From the NCBI GenBank assembly GCA_001630475.1, contig KV419417.1, positions 384,174 through 448,173 on the forward strand: a stretch of DNA of 64,000 nt. The letters run 5' to 3'. Position numbers and translations under genes: made by a program. Shown one piece after another: positions 40,394 to 58,095 of this stretch. The notes below the pieces were generated by a model, which saw nothing but the letters and a program-made list of their open reading frames with translations, was not told the DNA's origin and made no database searches. The number at the start of each line of letters is the position of its first letter. The first letter of the stretch is position 1. This DNA comes from Sistotremastrum niveocremeum HHB9708 (taxonomy: Eukaryota > Basidiomycota > Agaricomycetes > Sistotremastrales > Sistotremastraceae).

Positions 40394-41238
40394 GTCATCG
40401 CTAAGGATCTCAACGGGTATGGGTCTAGCCCGGATATCCGTCCTGATACCCGTGGGAAAACGGATAACCGCGTGACGGATATCCGTGACGCGGATATGTC
40501 ACGGGTGGCGGATATGGCCTTTGGAATTTCCGGATATCCGCGGCGAATATTTAAATGATTTATTTATTATTTATATTATTTATATTATTTTATATGTTAT
40601 TTATATTTATTATTTATATTATTTACATTACATTGGTGAATATTACGATGATTATCGACATTATTTTGATGATTATTACAGAATGTCCCCTGCACATCCT
40701 TGCACCCAAGCCTACATCCATCCATCCATCCCTCCATCCATCCCAAATCCATCTATTTTCTTCTCCAAATGTGTTGCCAGTGGGTGTAGATGATGTTGAA
40801 CACTTGATTGGAGGTGGTTGTTGCATGGGAAGGGGGTGGATGCGTTGGATGGTGGCTGGATGAGGTGCTGGTGGAGAGCCGAGTGCACGAGCTGAGTTCG
40901 AAATGCAAGGTCTGTTGTTTGTTTGCGTTCGAAGTGCTGGGTTCGAAACGACGACGCGCGTCGTTGTTTGCGTACAAACAACGCGAAAACATTAAATATA
41001 TTAATTTACAATAGAACGAATATATTTATTAATTTAAAACCCGCGGATATCACGGATATCACGGGTATCGAGACCCGAATACCCGAGACCCGGAAAAACC
41101 GCCGATATCCGCGTATCAGACCCGGCGGGTGGCGGATATGGCCTCTCGGGATTCCCGCGGGTCCCGGGTATGGCCTCGGAGATTCTCGCGGATATCCATA
41201 TCCGCGGGTGTATACCCGTTGAGAACCTTAGTCATCGC
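40394..41238. mobile_element. non-autonomous hAT-like element, 829 bp, with 8-bp duplication
   Basis: The element spans 40402-41230. Its ends are TAAGGATCTCAACGGGTAT and, inverted, TAAGGTTCTCAACGGGTAT. The 8-bp target duplication GTCATCGC flanks it at 40394-40401 and 41231-41238. Both subterminal regions carry many copies of the palindrome CGGATATCCG or variants, as expected of transposase-binding arrays. The centre is AT-rich and holds TCCATCCATCC microsatellite runs. There is no transposase frame. Confidence 0.85.
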
Positions 41239-41786: not shown

Positions 41787-42300
41787 CCCAAAGCCAAGGG
41801 GTTTTCGGAACCTTAAATCCGTACCCTGGGCCAGGGTGTGTGTGTGGGTCTCGGGCCCTTCCACACGCAAGTGCCCACCCATAAGTAATATATATATTAA
41901 TTTTTGAATAATTATATATGAGTTTTGGAGTGCTCCAGTATCTATTGAAAGCCTCAAAAATGTGTTTGGGCCTCTGCAACAGCTAAAAATCATACAATAT
42001 AGCAGTATCTAGGGTCTGGGGCTTGTATATGACCAAAAATCAATACATTAATTCATTTTATATATACATTGGTGTAGTGTTTGAAAGTCAGGTTAAGTTA
42101 GGTTATGGGCCCCTTGGAGGCCCTAACCGTAACCAAACCACGGTTATGGTTAATGGGTTTTGCTGTAACCTATAACCGCCAACGGTCACGGTTAAGCCAA
42201 AATTGGGTGACCATGACCTGACTTTGACCAGTTAATGCGGTTATGACCTCAAAAAAGTCATAAATCTCCACTTTTTACTACTTAATCTAGGTTATTGGTC

Positions 42301-43036
42301 CTCATATATAGTGATGTGAAATATGATATGATATGATATTTTCCCCAAATTTTGGAATACTGATATCGTGATCGATATCGCAAATCCCAATATCTTGGAA
42401 ATATCATATCGATATCGCGATATCGATATTTTGTTTTCAAAATCAAAATATCGCATCGATTTAAATCGATTTTTATCACTTGTGTGATTTAAATCAGTTT
42501 GATATCAGTTTTTATCAATTTAAATTGCAATTTTTTCTCATAACCTTCTCTAATCCACATATACCCTCCAGTATATCATGATATCATGGTACTGTGGTGC
42601 TATATCAGCCTATACATGCAGTCCCCAGTGATATCTGTGACTGAATGATGACCTCATGGGAAGGTTCAGCACCTGTGGGACCTGTGACGGAGGGTGACGT
42701 GGGTGACATCTGGTCCCCAGAGGGTGGGAACTTGCCTATATATGAGGGGTATCACAGTATTATAGCATATAGGAGGCTATATATCACTTGGAAGGTGATA
42801 TATACTGAGATATTGANNNNNNNNNNNNNNNNNNNNNNNNNNNNNNNNNNNNNNNNNNNNNNNNNNNNNNNNNNNNNNNNNNNNNNNNNNNNNNNNNNNN
42901 NNNNNNNNNNNNNNNNNNNNNNNNNNNNNNNNNNNNAATACTGATATCACATATCATATCACTTTGCGATATGATATGATATGATATGCGATATTTTGCG
43001 ATATTAAATATCCGTTTTTGCAACACTACTCATATA
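42301..43036. mobile_element. innermost hAT-like element, contains assembly gap
   Basis: The element spans 42309-43028 with ends TAGTGATGTGAAAT and, inverted, TAGTGTTGCAAAAA. It is flanked by the 8-bp duplication CTCATATA (42301-42308 and 43029-43036). The interior is dominated by GATATC/ATATGATATG palindromic repeats on both sides of the run of Ns, so the gap probably reflects this repeat. Confidence 0.8.
42817..42936. other. assembly gap (120 N)
   Basis: A run of undetermined bases inside the innermost hAT-like element. True length unknown. Confidence 0.98.
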
Positions 43037-43862
43037 TGATGTATATGACAAGCAGAACACACCAGAAGGCCTGGGGAAGGCTGTAGACAAGGATCTACCC
43101 ATGTTGGTCAAGGCAAGCGGTTAAGGATTCCGGGGAGGTCTATGACTGTGACTTGACCACCAGCTCTGAGCCATGACCATTAACCATGGTTAGGTCACAA
43201 ATGGTTAAGTTACGGCTAAGTCGCGGTTATTTGGCGGTTAAGTGACCTGACTTGCAAACACTACATTGGTGTGTACTATTCAAAGAAGGATCCTTCATAT
43301 AACCTCCTGGGGCCTTGATAACTGGGTGTACGCAAAGCTGAGTTCGAAACCATAGTTGAAAAGGGATCCCCGGGTGTCGGAAATATTCCGGAAGCGTCCA
43401 AAAATGGAGATAGTCTCGGAGATAACGGACTTAAGAGGTGTGTGTGTGTGTCCCAAGGCCTTCCCCGCGTAAGGTGGCGTATGTTCCGTGTTTGCGATTC
43501 CGAAAACCCCTTGCCCAAAGCTCGGCGAATTGGAACTTGAAGCTGATAGCTTTAGCCGGCGACTACTTGCAGTCTTCGTGGATGTTGCTGCAGAATAATC
43601 AGGACGATCTCTCTCTCAGTACCCCGCCGAACGCCTGGGGTTGGCCGCGACGACAGAATCGGCTTGCACGTGCAGTCCATTAGCAAGTTTGCCAACAAGC
43701 GATGCAATCAAAGCTCTTGGGCCTCGTGGTCCCCTCATGACTGTGGGCTGTCTTACTGTCGATATGCTGCCAGCCAGTGGACTCATTCGTGCCCGGATCC
43801 CGCACGATCATAGCACTACACGCACCGCTTTGGGGGATGAACTCTACGCCCTTCCGCCCACG

Positions 43863-43868
43863 TATAAA
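43863..43868 (+). promoter_or_regulatory. TATA box of low-complexity gene A
   Basis: CGTATAAACCC lies 95 bp before the proposed ATG at 43958. Confidence 0.5.
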
Positions 43869-43957
43869 CCCACACGAAATTGACGAGCAAGTTCCTTCGA
43901 AACTACGATACCATTTCGATTGATCAATCTAATCGAATAAGTGGTGAAAAGAGGTTA

Positions 43958-44480
43958 ATGTGCCTGTGCTTTCGTCATCTTTTCAAATCGAATAAACGCG
44001 TTTTCCGTGAGCACCATTACTCTACCCGCAATTCTTCATGCGGCTCTAATGTCAATACCATTCTCCATGCAGGGGCGGGAGATGGTGGAAATGGAATTCA
44101 AGGCGGGATCGGCGGCGGCGGCGGTGCCTTTCTATTATCTCCAGCAGAATTGGGCAATCCGCAGGGTTTGAGTAAGTATCTGTGTCTTTAAACTGACTGT
44201 TTATGGCGGATCTCAAAGGATTTCTTCATTAGTAGGCTTCAACTCACCTACGCCACCAGCGTACGCCGTTTCGTTAACCGAAACGTACATATGTCTTATT
44301 CAGTCTGATTTCAGCCCTGCTTTCAGCCCATCACCGTCACCAGGCTGGTATCCTCAGTCTCCTCCAGGTTCTGGATATGGATTTCCACCTACTTATCCGC
44401 CGCCGCAAGTTGGGGCGCCCTACGTGCAGTATCAACAAGGCTACAGTCCTCAACACTGGGGGAGCTCACCCTACGATTAA
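43958..44480 (+). CDS. Gly/Pro/Tyr-rich low-complexity protein A
   Basis: Proposed exons: MCLCFRHLFKSNKRVFR, joined by a short intron (GTGAGCACC...CATGCAG) to AGDGGNGIQGGIGGGGGAFL and LSPAELGNPQGL. A small exon, SFNSPTPPA, leads to a last exon PAFSPSPSPGWYPQSPPGSG, YGFPPTYPPPQVGAPYVQYQ, QGYSPQHWGSSPYD, stop at 44478-44480. All phases match. The plan (Gly-Asp-rich first half, Pro/Tyr/Gln-rich second half) is the same as in genes B and C. Such composition is typical of disordered, prion-like or phase-separating proteins. It lacks a signal peptide. The first exon is the least certain part, and it lacks the terminal Trp of the others. Function unknown. Confidence 0.6.
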
Positions 44481-49931: not shown

Positions 49932-49937
49932 TATAAA
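49932..49937 (+). promoter_or_regulatory. TATA box of secreted peptide gene 1
   Basis: AATATAAATACC lies 105 bp before the ATG at 50037 and is followed by a CT/CA-rich leader. Spacing is nearly the same as in the second peptide gene. Confidence 0.65.
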
Positions 49938-50036
49938 TACCAGCCATCGTATTCCAAGTCCACATCAAACAACACTTCAGCATCCGTCTCCGAGCTCCAT
50001 TCATCTATTTGAACACATCTTATTCTCATGTTTAAT

Positions 50037-50201
50037 ATGCAATTCCTCGTCATCCTTTTCGCCATGGTCTTCATCCAATCTGTCGCCTCGGCGCCAACCA
50101 GCACCCACATTATCGAGCCTGAAAATATTGCGACGGGCGCTATTGTTAAGGGATCGATCCAAGCTCGCGGTTGTCCCGGCTGCCCTCCTGGTGGACCCTA
50201 A
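50037..50201 (+). CDS. secreted peptide precursor 1 (C-terminal RGCPGCPPGGP)
   Basis: A 54-residue precursor. The signal peptide MQFLVILFAMVFIQSVASA is followed by a propeptide, PTSTHIIEPENIATGAIVKG, and a C-terminal SIQARGCPGCPPGGP. A second gene at 55951 ends in the same 11 residues. I chose the ATG at 50037, not the one at 50028, because its MQFL start matches the paralogue. Both cysteines lie in the terminal decapeptide, so the mature product is probably a small peptide released after the Arg, with a possible disulphide. The sequence alone does not prove processing. The exon ends 3 nt after the stop, followed by a 50-nt intron in the 3' UTR. It does not match pheromone precursors (no CaaX end), and I recognise no known peptide family. 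Confidence 0.8.
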   Translation: MQFLVILFAMVFIQSVASAPTSTHIIEPENIATGAIVKGSIQARGCPGCPPGGP

Positions 50202-50204
50202 AAG

Positions 50205-50254
50205 GTGAGTTGGCGACGCAGCTTTTCTCGGCCAAGTAATCTGATAATTTGCAG
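50205..50254 (+). other. 3' UTR intron of peptide gene 1
   Basis: The donor GTGAGT starts 3 nt after the TAA and the acceptor is TTTGCAG at 50254. The paralogue has an intron at the identical position. Confidence 0.6.
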
Positions 50255-52200
50255 GCCATCCTCCGGTTAATCATGCCTAATTATCACTATATATTCGCAT
50301 TCGGAAGATATCTTCGTTCACATATAATCGTGCTCGCAGCACATTAATCTCTGCGTTACCCTACATCATATATTTATTCCTCTCATAAACTATTACCGTA
50401 TAAATAGGCACCACTCCTAAGCTATGACCTTTTATCTAAGACTATTCCTCTTCCTTCTCTTCCTTTCTCGATATCTATTGCTATATTTTAGTCCTTTGCG
50501 ATGTTATGACTGTAGTTCGATGGATCATGCACTCATCACATCGTTACGCCCTCGAGTTTATCCGTAACCATAAGCACTGTTGAATCTTCCAAATATTCGC
50601 AGATACTTCACCATGTGTCACCCGTATACGGAAGAGTCCTCTCTCTGTCGTCGGCTCGAAGCCTCGACCTTTCCGAAGGTCATACAGGTTCCGAGTCAAA
50701 ATCGAATGTCGAGATGAACCTTCCCAATCGTGATTTCTGATGAACCATTTGAATGAACTTCGTGTGCCTTATTGTTCTCCTTATCGGGTTGTTTACAGTG
50801 ATTGTTGAGAAACAGGACTTGTTAGGGCGGAGTTGGAATTCCGATGTTGAACTCGAACACCCATCTGTTTTTCCAAACGCCCCTCAATGCGATTGGCCTC
50901 TTCTACAGCACTACAAAATCAAGTGACTGTATGAGCTCACTTCTTGGACACGTACTAGTCTTTACTGACCTCCTTCGCTGTTGCAAAGCCTGGGATGCCC
51001 CTCGGACGATGCTTTACAGTGGCTCGGGCTGTAACGATTGCGGTGGCATAACCTTGGTCCTATCTACACTCGAGCGGATATACACAATGCATCTCTCCGA
51101 GCAGCTCAGGCGAGCCACTGGTTCTGGTACCTCTCAGTCACAGTGAGTCCACAGTCTGGAGTCGCTCAGGACCGTACCGTACACACTTCGCAGACCTTCT
51201 TCGATGCTGGAAACCTCAGAGATGATCAAGCTTGGAGAGCTCATTCCTCCCAGGGCATGCTCCCACCTGTCCCGTTTGAAGGGCCTGTGCATCTTTCTGA
51301 TCATGAACTGCAGACTCACGACCTTGATGCTTGCCGGCTTCTAGTGCAAGTCATGCTTCGCCTCCCAGTATATCCGCTTAGAAGTTGGATCACCTGGATG
51401 ATACCTGGATGAATGAAACGCCCAGAATTCACACTGCTGCTGCTATTCCATCTCCATACTCGAAACACCTGGTCCTCCAAAAACTCCGAGACTCCAACTC
51501 GCCGTACCTCCGTTTTCGAGACATCACCGTGGGACTTCTTGTATGATGAGCTAAACGTCCTTCGCTGTCTTCAGTTTGCAAAGTTTTCCATTTGGACTCA
51601 GGATCGTCAGACTCCAAGTCAACAATGAACGTCAACTGAGCTTATAACCAAGGCAACGCCTCATACGACGCGTCATCCCAAAGAGGAAGTTCACGGGCTA
51701 AACAACCAACAACAACGCGTCTCGGAAAGCAAGGCGTCTACCATTTCAAAGTCCGCTACCTTTCTCGAGGACGTCGTCCCCGTCGTACAGACAGGTCCGC
51801 TCTACTGCTACAGACGATGACAACGACAGTACATCCGGGACGCTGTTTTGATACACAAGGGCAGCTTTCTGGGAGAGGAGAGGGCAAATCCAGCTGATCA
51901 AGCATGCCAAAGCAACCACGGAGACTCAAGCCGATGCCACATTCTTGCTCTCCGTCGTATTGTTGTCGTCGATATAAAAACCACTTCGTTCTCCGCCATG
52001 CTCTTTTTTCTCTTTCTCCAGTACCAGGATCATCGCCCGGGCAGTACTCCTCTCCTTGCCTTGCGAACGTGTTACTCAGTTTTCTCGTTCTAGACCCCAA
52101 TATCCCCCTCCCCGGCTCGTTCTAATCATTCACCTATCAACAGCCAAGCTTCAAGCGCCCCAGTCAACGTCCGACAGCCTCTCTCGCTCAAGTTGCAAAG
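50255..52200. other. spacer between peptide gene 1 and the 52.2-kb gene
   Basis: The first 200 bp is AT-rich 3' UTR. Several 60-120 residue frames between 50.8 and 52.1 kb overlap on both strands, with no splice logic and no recognised motif. CGATATAAAAACC at about 51969 may be the promoter of the gene at 52201. Confidence 0.4.
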
Positions 52201-52653
52201 ATGCCTTCGAGCCCGGTTCTTCACGATCTTTTCAAATTCGACATCGATCTTCCCTCTCTGGATGGCGATAGGAACCTTCATGGCGCCAGTCCTATCTACT
52301 TCAACAGGCAAGCTCCTATGGAGGGCATATCTTTGTTAGACCCTCAAAAACGCGTTGCTTCGGCTTCCCGGGTCTCCGCAGAGAAGGTCAATATGCCAGC
52401 CTCGTCGAAGTTGAAATGGGCTGACGCCATCGGTTCTTATCACTACATTGAGGTCGCGGACCGTTCTCAAAGTCTTGAAACAATCGTCAAGCTCATCAAG
52501 GAGGAAGTTCAGCGCTATCTTATTGCGGCGGGAGCGGCCAAGGAATTGCTGGCCCAGTTAAGCTTGGTGGGCATGAGGCAGACTGGTCCCCGGGAATGGC
52601 AGGTAATGTTCAAGGTTCGTGCTCGTGTTTTCATCGGCTGTGCTGGTTACTAG
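52201..52653 (+). CDS. small single-exon hypothetical protein
   Basis: A 150-residue intronless frame that opens MPSSPVLHDLFKFDIDLPSL. It contains PIYFNRQAPMEGISLLDPQK, then a more structured half: KLKWADAIGSYHYIEVADRS, QSLETIVKLIKEEVQRYLIA, AGAAKELLAQLSLVGMRQTG, and ends VRARVFIGCAGY. A CT-rich leader and a TATAAAA at about 51972 precede it. No signal peptide or membrane segment. Lack of introns is unusual in this window. Not recognised; it may be an orphan. Confidence 0.5.
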   Translation: MPSSPVLHDLFKFDIDLPSLDGDRNLHGASPIYFNRQAPMEGISLLDPQKRVASASRVSAEKVNMPASSKLKWADAIGSYHYIEVADRSQSLETIVKLIKEEVQRYLIAAGAAKELLAQLSLVGMRQTGPREWQVMFKVRARVFIGCAGY

Positions 52654-52844
52654 TGTCGTTGCTGCTATATGCTATCTTGTCGCTTTTAAGATATTGTAAT
52701 TTGCATGTATACTTAATTGATTCTTTATTCTAATACACTCGATCTTGCTATAAAATCATCTGTTCAACTCTCGTTTGGTTCAAGAAGCCCCGGAGGGTGC
52801 TATGACAATACACATGGAAAATAAGTGGGAGGACTGCGGAAAAT

Positions 52845-54526
52845 TCAGAACGCCTCAGCGTCCGATATGCTCGCGTACGGTATATTTGACATGCTTGTAA
52901 GATTCGAAGTGGGATGGGCAATATGGGAGGGATCAAAGCTTGATCGTTGCGGGGCGAGGGCGGTTGACAACGTCTCCTCAGCGTATTGGTCGGAGTAGTG
53001 TCTCAATGCATCGATGCTCGGTGCATGCGCTAGATCGTGTTGAGCGTGGTGATGTGGTGCGAAAGCAGGGAATGGTTGATAAGTGTCAGTGCTAGCCGAT
53101 GCCGCTAACGACCCAAAGAAGGGCATCGCATCGTGGGCGGCCTGAATGTGCATAGCGAGTTCAGGCTCGAATGAGGACAGCGAAGGGTGGGGATACAGCT
53201 CTCGTTGTGCATGTTTTTGTGATTGCCGATTGCGTGGAGTAGAAACGCGTGAGCGATATGGATGGTAACGTTGAGCAGGGGTGGAGGGCCCAGGTATCGA
53301 CTCTCTACCAGTGCTGAGATGAGGACTGGGCAAGTCACCGAATAGAGCCTCTGTGAATTGAGCAGTGCGTGGACTGGCGGTGATTGGAGCGCCGTCATCA
53401 TAGAATGGAAGAGAGTAGCCTTCCGGAAGAATGATGGGGTCGAAAAGTGTAAAGCCGATACTATCGGCTGGTCCGCCAATATTGTCTATTGCCGGAATTT
53501 GGGCCGGTTGGGGGATGTCGTAGTTGGTGATATCAGGGTCGGCATTCTTCGAGGTGGAGGCGCTCTCTCTGTTAACATCACCCTTCCTCGTAGAGAGAGG
53601 TTTAAAGGTAAAGAGCGGCTTCGCGCTGTCCTTCCTGATCAGGGAAGACTGAGCTTCGGTTTGCTGGTTGGAAGATGAGTGAGAAGTGGAGGATGGTTGG
53701 ATTTGAACATTGGGGTCTGCATATATAATTCCGGGGATTTGCAGCTGAGGACAGAAGTCTCCAAGATTTCGCCGTGTCCAATACATGTTTGGTAGGTACA
53801 TGCCACCGGGAGTTTGGAACATCTCATCTCGTGCGCGTTCGGTGACGAGGCTGAAGTTGGGCCACCAAATCCCAGGCGCGACGTTTTGGATATCATGGAG
53901 GACAAGATCCTCTAACCGAAAGGGAGCAACAGAATTGAAACCCGGATGCTGTCGAAGTTGTAGACTCTAGGATATCCAGGCTTCAGTGAAGCTGTGACTA
54001 TATCGGCGATACGCTCACGTCAAAGAGGTCTCTTGCATGTCTCCACACCTGATAGACGAGATGAAGGCGCAGAACACCGAAACCTTCAATCTCGACAGTA
54101 TTGAGAGGGTTATCTTCCGCGCCAGGCCACTATGCATTGTCAGGATGTGATCGTGCACCTCGAAGGAGAACGCACATCAAATTTGAGCGTAAATTTTGAG
54201 CCACGAATGAACAGATCCGTTGCTTTGTTCAGCCTTGGGTCATATAACTTGTGATTGCCGTGGACGAGTTGCATTCCATATTGACCCTCATGTTCCACAA
54301 GACGAACACCGGTGGCTTTCCCTCCTCCTCCTTCCTCGCATTGGAAATTCCTGAATTCCAAGAAGTCATGTCTCTGGGTTTCTATAAACCGGGTATGAGA
54401 CACTCCTCGGCTTCTGCAGAGTGCCCTCTGACGAGCTCTGACTCTCTGACGGTATTCATTCGTGATCAAGAATTCAAGTTTGCCGAGGCGGCTTGTCGGG
54501 GTACCAGGATCAGGCCGTTCGAGCAT
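52845..54526 (-). CDS. hypothetical regulator-like protein
   Basis: The minus-strand ATG at 54526 opens MLERPDPGTPTSRLGKLEFL, then RFIETQRHDFLEFRNFQCEE, VRLVEHEGQYGMQLVHGNHK, DLFIRGSKFTLKFD. Introns lead to WPGAEDNPLNTVEIEGFGVL and RLHLVYQVWRHARDLFD, then SLQLRQHPGFNSVAPFRLED, NVAPGIWWPNFSLVTERARD and a 325-residue exon. That exon is Ser/Pro/His-rich and disordered (STSHSSSNQQTEAQSSLIRK, FAPHHHAQHDLAHAPSIDAL) and ends SISDAEAF. A folded N-terminal part with a long disordered tail suggests a nuclear or regulatory protein, but no DNA-binding motif is visible. Exon joints are plausible but unproven. Family not recognised. Confidence 0.6.
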
Positions 54527-55841
54527 TGCGGAAGGAAGGGATAATTGGTTACGATGTATCTCGAGTACGAACAGGTTTGAAGAAGGGAAATGATGGGTAG
54601 TAGGAGAGTCGTAGATGGGAGAGGCTCGAATCCAGTTATAAAAGAGTCAACCGTGGCACTAGTATTGTTCGACAACGAGAGTCAGCGTGGCTACCCTTGG
54701 ACCCACTACTGTGATGTGGCCTCGTGCTCCTTTGTTACCAAACTTACCATAATTGGTCCACTCTAGAACCAGTGGACGGTAGTCCGAAGAGCCGTCCAAA
54801 AAATTGCGTAGGATAATACTCAGCAACTAGCATGGGTCTAGCATAGGACCCGAGTGGACGCAATTTTGTGTCCGTTTTTCGGCTTTCTTCATCAACGACA
54901 TCGTTGACAGCGTGAGGAAATGCAAGGAAATAATGTCATGAGTTGTTTCAGATCATTTCATACTCCGCTATCGAGCTGCCCGACGGCCATGATGCTGACC
55001 AAGATGGCTCTGCTTGTGAACAGCTCAGCTTAGTTCACCGCAATCCGGATTTTTATTTTCTCAGTGCGATATACTCCTTGGCGAAGTCAAAGCTGTATCC
55101 CACGCAACACGGACCCACAGGCCCTGACTTGCCTCTGAAACAAGCTTCGATGGGCAATCACGGACGAGGATCAGTGGATCAGTATCATCCACAATGGATC
55201 GACTTGAATCCTACAATCACGGCTGGCTGTGCTGCTCCTGATATCGGTTGTACCGTACCGGGGCGCGGGTACATCAATTTCAAAAAGCGCAGCTAAATTC
55301 TCCAATGCACGCCTTTCTCTCGTTGAACTCGAATTCTGCTCTCGCGTCTACCAACACTAGGTACTGTGTCAACCTTGCAATTTATTGCAGTGCTGGCTTG
55401 AGTCCTTCAGTCGAGAGTATGGATCATCCTGGGCTGACTTGGGTCTGCATACTTGTGCGCTAGGACTAGGCTGTCTCGAATTTCACGGTTTCGGCTACGG
55501 TCATCAGGTGAAACGGCTCGGTATGAAGGTATCAATCCCAACTGTCAGGTTCAAACTGCCTTGCTATAGCAACAAAGCCGGGTATCTCCAAAGTTTTTGA
55601 CTTACTACGGCGTGTATGGCACAGGGTTCTTGTTCTTCAGCCACTCCTGCAGGTTTTGGCGTCAAATTGTCCGCGACGTACGCGTAGTGTACGCGCTCGC
55701 ACGGGCTAATACCTAGCCATTCCTATCAACCTGAACAGCGTCGGCCAGGGACATCTTGCATGACAGTTTTGCCTAGTCAATACTCGAGAGGTGAGACATG
55801 GGCAGACGCAAACGCTTTGAAAAGCTCTGTGGCATCATGGG
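54527..55841. other. spacer before peptide gene 2
   Basis: Frames at 54943-55296 and 55248-55600 are open but unrecognised and have no promoter-like context. Nothing else seen. Confidence 0.4.
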
Positions 55842-55848
55842 TATAAAA
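55842..55848 (+). promoter_or_regulatory. TATA box of secreted peptide gene 2
   Basis: GGTATAAAATTC lies 109 bp before the ATG at 55951, matching the spacing of peptide gene 1. Confidence 0.65.
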
Positions 55849-55950
55849 TTCTGGGCATTTCGAGTCAAACCTCATCATCCAACAACTCCCACTTGAGTCT
55901 CAAGTCCTCTCAGATTCAAACTTCTCATCTATTTTTATATATTCTGAACT

Positions 55951-56124
55951 ATGCAATTCCTCAGCATCCTCTTCATTGCTATCGCTTTCCAACTCGTGGC
56001 ATCTGCGCCAGCAGTCCCATCCCCCTTCGATAACGTCGAATCAACAACATCCACAACCTCCACGACTACTGAGACTCCTATCCAAACTCGTGGCTGCCCC
56101 GGCTGCCCCCCGGGTGGACCTTAA
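55951..56124 (+). CDS. secreted peptide precursor 2 (C-terminal RGCPGCPPGGP)
   Basis: A 57-residue precursor. The signal peptide MQFLSILFIAIAFQLVASA is followed by PAVPSPFDNVE, a Thr/Ser run (STTSTTSTTTET) and the end PIQTRGCPGCPPGGP. It has the same plan as the gene at 50037. The signal peptides are alike (MQFL.ILF...F..VASAP), the propeptides unrelated, and the last 11 residues identical. Across those 11 codons I count about six synonymous differences and no amino-acid change. This points to selection on the terminal peptide. The Thr-rich stretch could be O-glycosylated. The stop is followed after 3 nt by an intron of 46 nt. The gene lies about 6 kb from its paralogue on the same strand. 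Function unknown: effector, signal or antimicrobial peptide are all possible. Confidence 0.8.
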   Translation: MQFLSILFIAIAFQLVASAPAVPSPFDNVESTTSTTSTTTETPIQTRGCPGCPPGGP

Positions 56125-56127
56125 ACG

Positions 56128-56173
56128 GTCAGTCTTTACCCTTGATTTGGAACTTGATCTAACATCACAATAG
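56128..56173 (+). other. 3' UTR intron of peptide gene 2
   Basis: The donor GTCAGT starts 3 nt after the TAA and the acceptor is ACAATAG at 56173, the same position as in peptide gene 1. Confidence 0.55.
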
Positions 56174-56672: not shown

Positions 56673-58095
56673 ATGACAAGCATCTTAGCTCCTCCTGGAT
56701 TCCGCTCACTGTCTATCCCATTATCCCAATTGTCTCTAGCGACAGTCCTGAAATGTGGCCAGTCATTTCGTTGGCACATATTCGCTCTCCCGAATGAGAC
56801 GACAGATCCACAATACCCAACTCATGAATACCGACTCGCACTTCATGACCGTGTCATATGTCTCCAACAAGCCCCAGACAGGCTTTTCTATCGCTCAGAG
56901 CTCTCAGAACGCGTTGCAGAACGCGACTTTGAACTTCGACAGGAGGAGACGCTGGTGTGGCTTCGAGATTATTTTCAGCTTGATGTGGACCTCTTGAATC
57001 TTTATGATGAATGGTCTCATAAAGATGAGGTTTTCAAAAGTTTGAGACATCGTTTCGAAGGCATCAGGATGTTGAGGCAAGACCCTTGGGAAAACTTGAT
57101 ATCGTCGGTCCTACTTCTTAGTAACGTCCTGGACCTATCTCATCTCGCTCAACACAGATTCATATGCTCGTCGAACAACCATATTTCGCGCATATCAAAA
57201 ATGGTCCAAAACCTCTGCACCCATTTCTCCTCGCCAACTCTGTCCATGGCTTCTCCCTCAACCCCTGAATCAACAATATACTATCCATTTCCTCCGCCTT
57301 CAGCTCTTGCAGATCCAAGCGTCGCTGAAAAATTGCGATCGCTCGGCTTCGGATATCGAGCCAATTTCATTCAGAAAACAGCCCAGATGCTGTTAGAGCA
57401 AACCGGATCAGATCAAGCTGCCATTAAATTCCTGTACGAGTTACGGTCTCGTCCGACAGACGAAGCTCGGGAGGAACTGATAAAATTCATGGGAGTTGGG
57501 AGAAAAGTGGCAGATTGCGTTCTCCTCATGAGCATCGATAAGGTATATCCACCCGTTTCATCCCACCGCGAACCCTACTGATGAATAACTTCATGCCTAG
57601 AGAGAAGTAGTCCCCGTCGACACCCACGTTCACCAAATCGCGGTCAAACACTACAAATTCCGAGGTTCACCAACAAAAACCGCCATGTCACCCAAATTAT
57701 ACGACGAACTTCAGTCAAAAATGTCCAAGATCTGGGGCCCTTGGGCGGGCTGGGCCCACTCCGTATTATTCACCGCCGATCTCAAGTCGTTCTCGACCTA
57801 TGGCCTTCCCACTCCATCCCCGTCACCTGAAAAACCTCGCCCTTCGAGAGCCGTATCGGATACTCAACTGTTGACGACGCCGACGAAGAATGGCAAGCGC
57901 AAACGAAAGGATGAAGGAGCCCCGTCTACGTTCCTACAGGAAGCTAAGACGGAAATTCTCTCAGAAGCCATTGCAGAGCTTGAGCTAAAGGCCCCCATGA
58001 GCGACGTCGCATCAGAAGACCTCTCTATGAACAGTCTTGCGGAGCGCGTCAAAAGACGAAAGCGCACCCCGTTGCAAAGGACGCAGACGCGATGA
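56673..58095 (+). CDS. OGG1: 8-oxoguanine DNA glycosylase/lyase OGG1
   Basis: OGG1 removes 8-oxoguanine opposite cytosine in base-excision repair. The ATG at 56673 opens MTSILAPPGFRSLSIPLSQL. LATVLKCGQSFRW is the N-terminal OGG motif. LDVDLLNLYDEWSHKDEVF and [27 protein letters not shown] follow after a short intron (GTCGGTCC...CACAG). The helix-hairpin-helix/GPD region reads LIKFMGVGRKVADCVLLMSI, with the catalytic Lys in GRKVADC. An intron then gives REVVPVDTHVHQIAVKHYKF, with the conserved Asp in VPVDTHV. The end has WAGWAHSVLFTADL and a basic tail with nuclear-localisation-like clusters (KNGKRKRKDE; RVKRRKRTPLQ). All catalytic residues are present. Convergent with UFD1. Confidence 0.94.

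Follow-up and report, generated by a model that had tools for sequence, protein, structure and literature searches.

What kind of product is made by two small genes that diverge through their middle and end in the same eleven residues, RGCPGCPPGGP, is the question raised by a 64,000-nucleotide stretch (the window) of contig KV419417.1 from Sistotremastrum niveocremeum HHB9708, a fungus of decaying wood (order Sistotremastrales, class Agaricomycetes) now named Sertulicium niveocremeum by NCBI. The two genes, g1 and g2, lie 5.9 kb apart on the same (+) strand; judged by sequence, they belong to a group of at least five genes with a common core which is one family in this fungus, as shown in one genome. 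The reading preferred here, to which a probability of about 0.6 is given, is that g1-g5 represent a new family of secreted peptides, each with a single core at the C-terminus, that are probably cut after Arg by a Kex2-type protease and likely serve as extracellular self-signals; the secretion, cleavage, disulphide and signalling that this entails are what we infer from the evidence set out below.

Translation confirmed the layout proposed for g1 and g2 by an earlier, sequence-only reading of this DNA, in which each + strand gene encodes a protein that opens with a hydrophobic leader, diverges through its middle and closes with the identical RGCPGCPPGGP. The two proteins share 52% identity overall in pairwise alignment, and the common residues are found mostly in the leader and the last 14 residues. 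The propeptides had been called unalignable; the N-terminal parts are not so throughout, as the leaders (MQFLxILF) and the I-Q-x-R ahead of the core do align. A recount of the 11 core codons, Arg included, returned the same six synonymous and zero replacement differences that had been noted by eye (Sd 6.0, Nd 0.0), and the TATA spacing described as conserved was recovered, with a TATAAA box found at both distances (105 and 109 bp). In g1 a second in-frame ATG is possible at 50028.

The whole genome (34,710,156 bases in 111 contigs, with g1 and g2 on the contig designated C24) was searched with the g2 protein, which led to two more loci, g3 and g4, one of them at a weak expectation value (E) of 0.62; a pattern search then added g5. 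The pattern CxGCxPGxP has five exact matches in the genome, which are g1-g5, against none for a reversed-pattern control and approximately 0.63 expected in 34.7 Mb under a window-trained first-order Markov model. Each of the five matches is C-terminal in an open reading frame (ORF) of 54-64 residues with a hydrophobic leader; in g4 the match is followed by one additional Trp if the transcript is unspliced. In the five-sequence alignment, into which g4 was entered without its possible terminal Trp, seven residues of the last 11 columns, R, C, G, C, P, G and P, do not vary among the five (R-x-C-x-G-C-x-P-G-x-P), with strict conservation starting at the Arg. The leaders of g1-g3 and g5 are strongly hydrophobic on the Kyte-Doolittle scale and are presumed to be signal peptides. 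The proposal of a ribosomally made peptide with the C-terminal decapeptide as its mature part is supported by these three further paralogues, which have the same architecture. The genes g5 and g3 lie 27 kb apart on contig C16 in the same orientation and form a second same-contig pair beside g1/g2.

Allowing one mismatch in the pattern gave 35 matches (5 exact, 30 inexact) compared to 28 in the reversed control, a level of background; 25 of the 30 inexact matches were inspected by eye, and none of these looked like a leader-bearing precursor that would make a sixth member. A family member whose core departs from CxGCxPGxP by more than one mismatch would escape this search. Two of the inexact matches, L034 and L042, are also followed immediately by a stop.

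Replacement and synonymous change were compared separately for the core and for the rest of the protein, as had been suggested for the propeptide and the core, and the core is constrained while the remainder is divergent at a similar synonymous divergence. Over the ten gene pairs, the proportion of differing replacement sites (pN) is 0-0.26 in the 11 core codons and 0.40-0.61 in everything before the core, leader included; the corresponding proportion for synonymous sites (pS) is 0.53-0.93 in the core and 0.57-0.78 before it, and every one of the four highest core pN values involves g5. Fisher tests, applied to the g1/g2 and g1/g3 pairs with rounded site counts, gave p = 4e-5 for g1/g2 (replacement differences at 0 of 23 core sites vs 39 of 97) and p = 3e-6 for g1/g3 (1 of 23 vs 55 of 96). 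Strong protein-level constraint is confined to the C-terminal stretch; since synonymous sites are as diverged in the core as elsewhere, gene conversion or recent copying does not account for the core identity. Recent segmental duplication is also unsupported as its source: when window positions 45-62 kb were compared with 9.9 kb around each of g3, g4 and g5, only stretches of 26-48 nt aligned at E 1e-2, at the cores, that of g3 among them, and the 9.9 kb around g5 yielded no aligned stretch at this threshold. Because the flanking DNA is unalignable outside the cores, their identity is not that of a recent block copy.

These measurements bear on the possibility, held to be highly improbable, that g1-g5 are chance ORFs or the decaying remains of a family that once functioned. 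The genes appear to be unannotated, and g4 and g5 have no canonical TATAAA box but TATA-like sites only (TATAAG at 140 bp and TATTTATA at 115 bp), which speaks for this view; against it, all five frames are open, the core is constrained at a pS of at least 0.5, TATAAA stands at 102-109 bp in g1-g3 (102 bp in g3), all five have a splice donor at the stop or close to it, and the five motif matches compare with about 0.6 expected and an empty reversed control.

The intron near the stop is a further shared feature. An intron position kept in the 3' untranslated region (UTR) of g1 and g2 had been described, and it holds on the basis of splice signals, with a GT donor 3 nt past both stops and acceptors present; the donor is 9 nt past the stop in g5, while two candidate donors, at 3 and 11 nt, are seen in g3. 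The straight frame of g4 ends in GGPW, and a consensus donor, GTGAGC, overlaps the Trp codon; a candidate intron of 52 nt, which runs from GTGAGC to the acceptor TTTTCAG and contains a branch-point-like ATTAAC, would produce a spliced frame that ends in GGP followed by a stop. Because the predicted spliced frame of g4 ends in GGP and the donors of g1, g2, g3 and g5 are near the stop, the sequences suggest an ancestral intron at or just past the stop and cores that all end in Pro. Going by its splice signals, retention or removal of the g4 intron would switch the end of the peptide between GGPW and GGP.

Profiles built from four and five members were run against a public protein database and returned 604 and 608 candidates, of which not one reached E <= 10. 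In a local control (HMMER, database size set) the five-sequence profile gives the members from which it was built E 5.6e-16 or better, which is so by construction; in a leave-one-out control four of five members still reach E <= 10, with g5 failing (E about 800). Controls consisting of the core only exceed E 10 in three of five cases with the five-sequence profile and in four of five with the four-sequence profile, and relatives sharing only the core could therefore be missed in protein searches. OGG1 (8-oxoguanine DNA glycosylase; PF07934 + PF00730) is found directly downstream of g2 at window 56673-58095. The best match of the frame at 56673 is the annotated DNA glycosylase of S. niveocremeum HHB9708, which is identical save for 18 residues in the unspliced query, evidently an intron. 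Since this genome's OGG1 protein is in the database and family members would score, yet nothing was returned at E <= 10, it appears that the deposited annotation lacks g1-g5, or that they were left out of the database searched.

No occurrence of the core strings was found in the literature searched, which yielded analogues only; together with the profile searches, which gave no relative, this agrees with the earlier statement that no described fungal family has this core. Pfam returned only weak, sub-cut-off matches for g1 (DUF1505, E 0.2) and g2 (New_glue, E 0.003) and none for g3-g5; these are put down to the leader and Ser/Thr composition, and assignment to a known protein family was rejected on the ground that no Pfam match passes the cut-off. 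Viral contigs contained no match to the core pattern.

In the mechanism proposed for g1-g5, the hydrophobic leader would direct the 54-64-residue precursor to the secretory pathway and then be removed; the fast-evolving propeptide would be cut off after the single Arg that all five share, with a Kex2-type protease the most likely agent, to release a C-terminal 10-residue peptide, [GST]-C-[PA]-G-C-[PR]-P-G-[GA]-P, that is probably closed by a CxxC disulphide and would have a rigid Pro/Gly tail. The residues ahead of the core are IQAR in g1, IQTR in g2, IEIR in g3, GQTR in g4 and FEPR in g5. Kex2 sites are described in a review as having Arg at P1, Lys at P2 or, failing that, one of Arg, Thr, Pro, Glu and Ile, and Leu or another aliphatic residue at P4 (PMC8528282); four of the five sites fit these preferences at P2, three at P4, and two (g2 and g3) at both. 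Several products of Coprinopsis precursors expressed in Pichia are described as apparently cut after a single Arg (PMC9769878). P_proprotein domains, the mark of Kex2-type subtilases, have domain-level matches at two places in the genome.

The same Arg sites can be taken to mean that the propeptide is not cleaved at all, and that the whole secreted protein of 35-45 residues works with its C-terminal tail docking to a partner such as a wall component or receptor. The sites are monobasic and imperfect for Kex2, and the Arg itself is invariant, as if part of the tail; however, the sequence ahead of the Arg is free to change (pN 0.40-0.61, with the leader counted in), as is expected of a discarded propeptide, and the absence of cleavage is considered quite unlikely.

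It is also conceivable, if rather unlikely, that the core is the substrate of a ribosomally synthesised and post-translationally modified peptide (RiPP) pathway, in which Cys and Pro would be modified or cyclised to give a toxin, an antimicrobial or a metal-binding peptide. Two Cys in a CxxC arrangement and a conserved core behind a leader suit modification or metal binding, and the genome contains 53 exon-level matches to the UstYa family (PF11807), one of them about 41 kb from g3 on C16; yet none of the 53 is on C24 or C44, and the sole metabolic enzyme recognised by Pfam among 25 of the neighbouring open frames (ORF fragments) is an amidohydrolase 12 kb upstream of g1. Dikaritin-type cross-links, moreover, need Tyr in the core, and the core here has none. 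As a separate observation, the distribution of UstYa matches over many contigs suggests that this fungus has RiPP-type clusters still to be explored.

Signalling is considered the most likely role of the core peptide, given a core that hardly varies, a disposable propeptide, the lack of any recognised RiPP-type modifying enzyme among the 25 neighbouring frames scanned, and the analogy with Qsp1; the peptide would most likely act as an extracellular self-signal between hyphae or colonies, like Cryptococcus Qsp1 and the ascomycete alpha-pheromones. A bolder version, offered tentatively and at low confidence, is that the family represents an undescribed peptide-hormone class of mushroom-forming fungi, a functional counterpart of alpha-factor (Cys + PGxP) with a self-sensing receptor outside the mating locus; such a class would have been overlooked because its genes have fewer than 65 codons, one core and a monobasic site, and the core falls in the C-terminal fragment that one large survey of repeat proteins omitted.

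Several points weigh against a family of secreted self-signals. Whole-protein searches clearly link only g1, g2 and g3, and the kinship of g4 and g5 would rest mainly on the core and the architecture: the g4 query misses g3 and has only weak matches to g1 (E 0.009) and g2 (E 0.17), the g3 query misses g4, and the g5 query finds no other member, while g5 itself would score about E 800 with a profile made from the remaining four. The g4 leader is short and less hydrophobic (Kyte-Doolittle 1.94), none of the five precursors has a dibasic site, and P2 of g1 and P4 of g4 and g5 depart from the Kex2 motif. The profile searches of the protein database returned no relative from another species, and the signalling role is argued by analogy.

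Table 1. Positions of the features of g1 and g2 in the window and of g3-g5 in the genome (C16 and C44 are contigs).
Feature	Position	Strand	Details
g1 (gene 1) coding sequence, 54 residues + stop	50037..50201	+	reads MQFLVILFAMVFIQSVASAPTSTHIIEPENIATGAIVKGSIQARGCPGCPPGGP
g1 TATAAA box	49932..49937	+	105 bp 5' of ATG
g1 hydrophobic leader, presumed signal peptide	50037..50093	+	MQFLVILFAMVFIQSVASA; mean Kyte-Doolittle 3.37 over 11 residues; cleavage point inferred
g1 divergent propeptide	50094..50168	+	last residues IQAR; from alignment
g1 core GCPGCPPGGP, putative mature decapeptide	50169..50198	+	identical in g2
g1 predicted 3' UTR intron, 50 nt	50205..50254	+	GTGAGT..TTGCAG; 3 nt past stop; splice signals only
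g2 (gene 2) coding sequence, 57 residues + stop	55951..56124	+	reads MQFLSILFIAIAFQLVASAPAVPSPFDNVESTTSTTSTTTETPIQTRGCPGCPPGGP
g2 TATAAA box	55842..55847	+	109 bp 5' of ATG
g2 hydrophobic leader, presumed signal peptide	55951..56007	+	MQFLSILFIAIAFQLVASA; mean Kyte-Doolittle 2.94 over 11 residues; cleavage point inferred
g2 divergent Ser/Thr-rich propeptide	56008..56091	+	last residues IQTR; from alignment
g2 core GCPGCPPGGP, putative mature decapeptide	56092..56121	+	identical in g1
g2 predicted 3' UTR intron, 46 nt	56128..56173	+	GTCAGT..AATAG; 3 nt past stop; splice signals only
g3	C16:428622		MQFITFSAIFFIAQIVTFSSALPISGVELEVASKTIEPTTPAIEIRGCAGCPPGGP; core end RGCAGCPPGGP
g4	C44:201888-202082 (1495-1689 in extracted locus L006)	minus	end ATIPGQTRSCAGCPPGGPW; RSCAGCPPGGP, or GGPW unspliced
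g5	C16:401509		MLFVYLITLVQFVSFISCLPTSIGASPGPAPLDVSTIPTVDGVVFEPRTCAGCRPGAP; core end RTCAGCRPGAP

Elsewhere in the window, the interval 52126-54646 between g1 and g2 contains open frames at 52201 (+), 52848 and 54143 (both -) that have no Pfam match at E 1. The G+C content falls to 0.41 at 42001-44000, compared to 0.46-0.51 in the other 2-kb steps, and a TATTTATAT-type array is found near this step at 40548-40630. A scan of the window with Rfam gave nothing at the gathering threshold.

To our knowledge, few self-signalling peptides of basidiomycetes are known besides the prenylated mating pheromones. Examples are Qsp1 of Cryptococcus, as described in PMC7537855, and the peptides of repeat proteins, whose role is described as largely unknown (PMC9769878). 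A defined core of ten residues, encoded five times in one fungus, is open to synthesis and to direct tests on growth, fusion, density response or development. The five genes also suggest that annotation can lack small single-core precursors altogether, in which case annotation-based surveys of fungal secretomes may overlook a layer of peptide signalling.

Among known systems, the CaaX lipopeptide pheromones of basidiomycetes resemble g1-g5 in having short precursors and several paralogues; the present family differs by its hydrophobic leader, by the lack of a CaaX end and by its absence from any contig with STE3. All five precursors end in GGP or GAP (GGPW if g4 is unspliced), and the 25 STE3 matches are only on C13 and C35, with the precursors on C16, C24 and C44; a CaaX mating pheromone was rejected, and the exclusion made earlier from g1 and g2 extends to the five genes.

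The KEX2-processed repeat proteins (KEPs), described in PMC9769878, would share with g1-g5 a leader and a short peptide produced by a Kex2-type cut, and are mostly of unknown function; g1-g5 differ in having a single core rather than repeats, a single Arg rather than KR, RR or KK, and no XA/XP dipeptides. Assignment to the KEPs was rejected, as there is one core per precursor in all five and no KR, RR or KK site in any. KEPs occur in Agaricomycetes and include alpha-type pheromone-like KEPs of Basidiomycota, according to PMC9769878. A 2019 survey of 250 secretomes is described as requiring at least three repeats and leaving out the C-terminal fragment (PMC6339444), and because of both rules it would miss a single-core family. 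A later survey lists one KEP group, #80, for Sistotremastrum as a genus (PMC7329392); a repeat protein would not match the single-core genes. A dikaritin RiPP of the ustiloxin type, defined in PMC9769878 by repeated cores between dibasic Kex2 sites, was likewise rejected on its precursor features, in view of the single core and monobasic site; as to the clustering with a UstYa-family enzyme expected of dikaritins, one match is about 41 kb from g3 on C16 and none is on C24 or C44.

The alpha-factors of Leotiomycetes include WCGRPGQPC and RCGHPGQPCG (PMC10569646). As far as these published examples go, the cores are similar to ascomycete alpha-factors in length (9-10 residues), in having two Cys, one of them at position 2, and in an xPGxP (CxGC[PR]PG[GA]P here); they differ in that the second Cys of alpha-factors comes after PGxP and here before it, and that here there is a single core without repeats or XA/XP spacers. 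The XA/XP dipeptides acted on by STE13 are absent, and the core directly follows the Arg in all five. The host here is a basidiomycete, and for that group sexual reproduction is said to proceed without alpha-type pheromones (PMC6339444). The likeness to alpha-factor is taken here as a lead rather than a sign of kinship, chance being possible with motifs this short.

The core of Qsp1 is C-terminal, unprenylated and rich in Pro and Gly, and its sequence is not known to contain Cys, unlike the cores of g1-g5. In Cryptococcus neoformans, Qsp1 is described as arising from a secreted pro-peptide that gives an 11-residue peptide, matured extracellularly by Pqp1 and imported by Opt1 (PMC7537855). It is likened to g1-g5 by this description, as a basidiomycete secreted pro-peptide with an 11-residue product, and no kinship is claimed. 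Set beside these systems, the family works like a secreted single-core peptide precursor and falls outside every group that was tested on its defining features.

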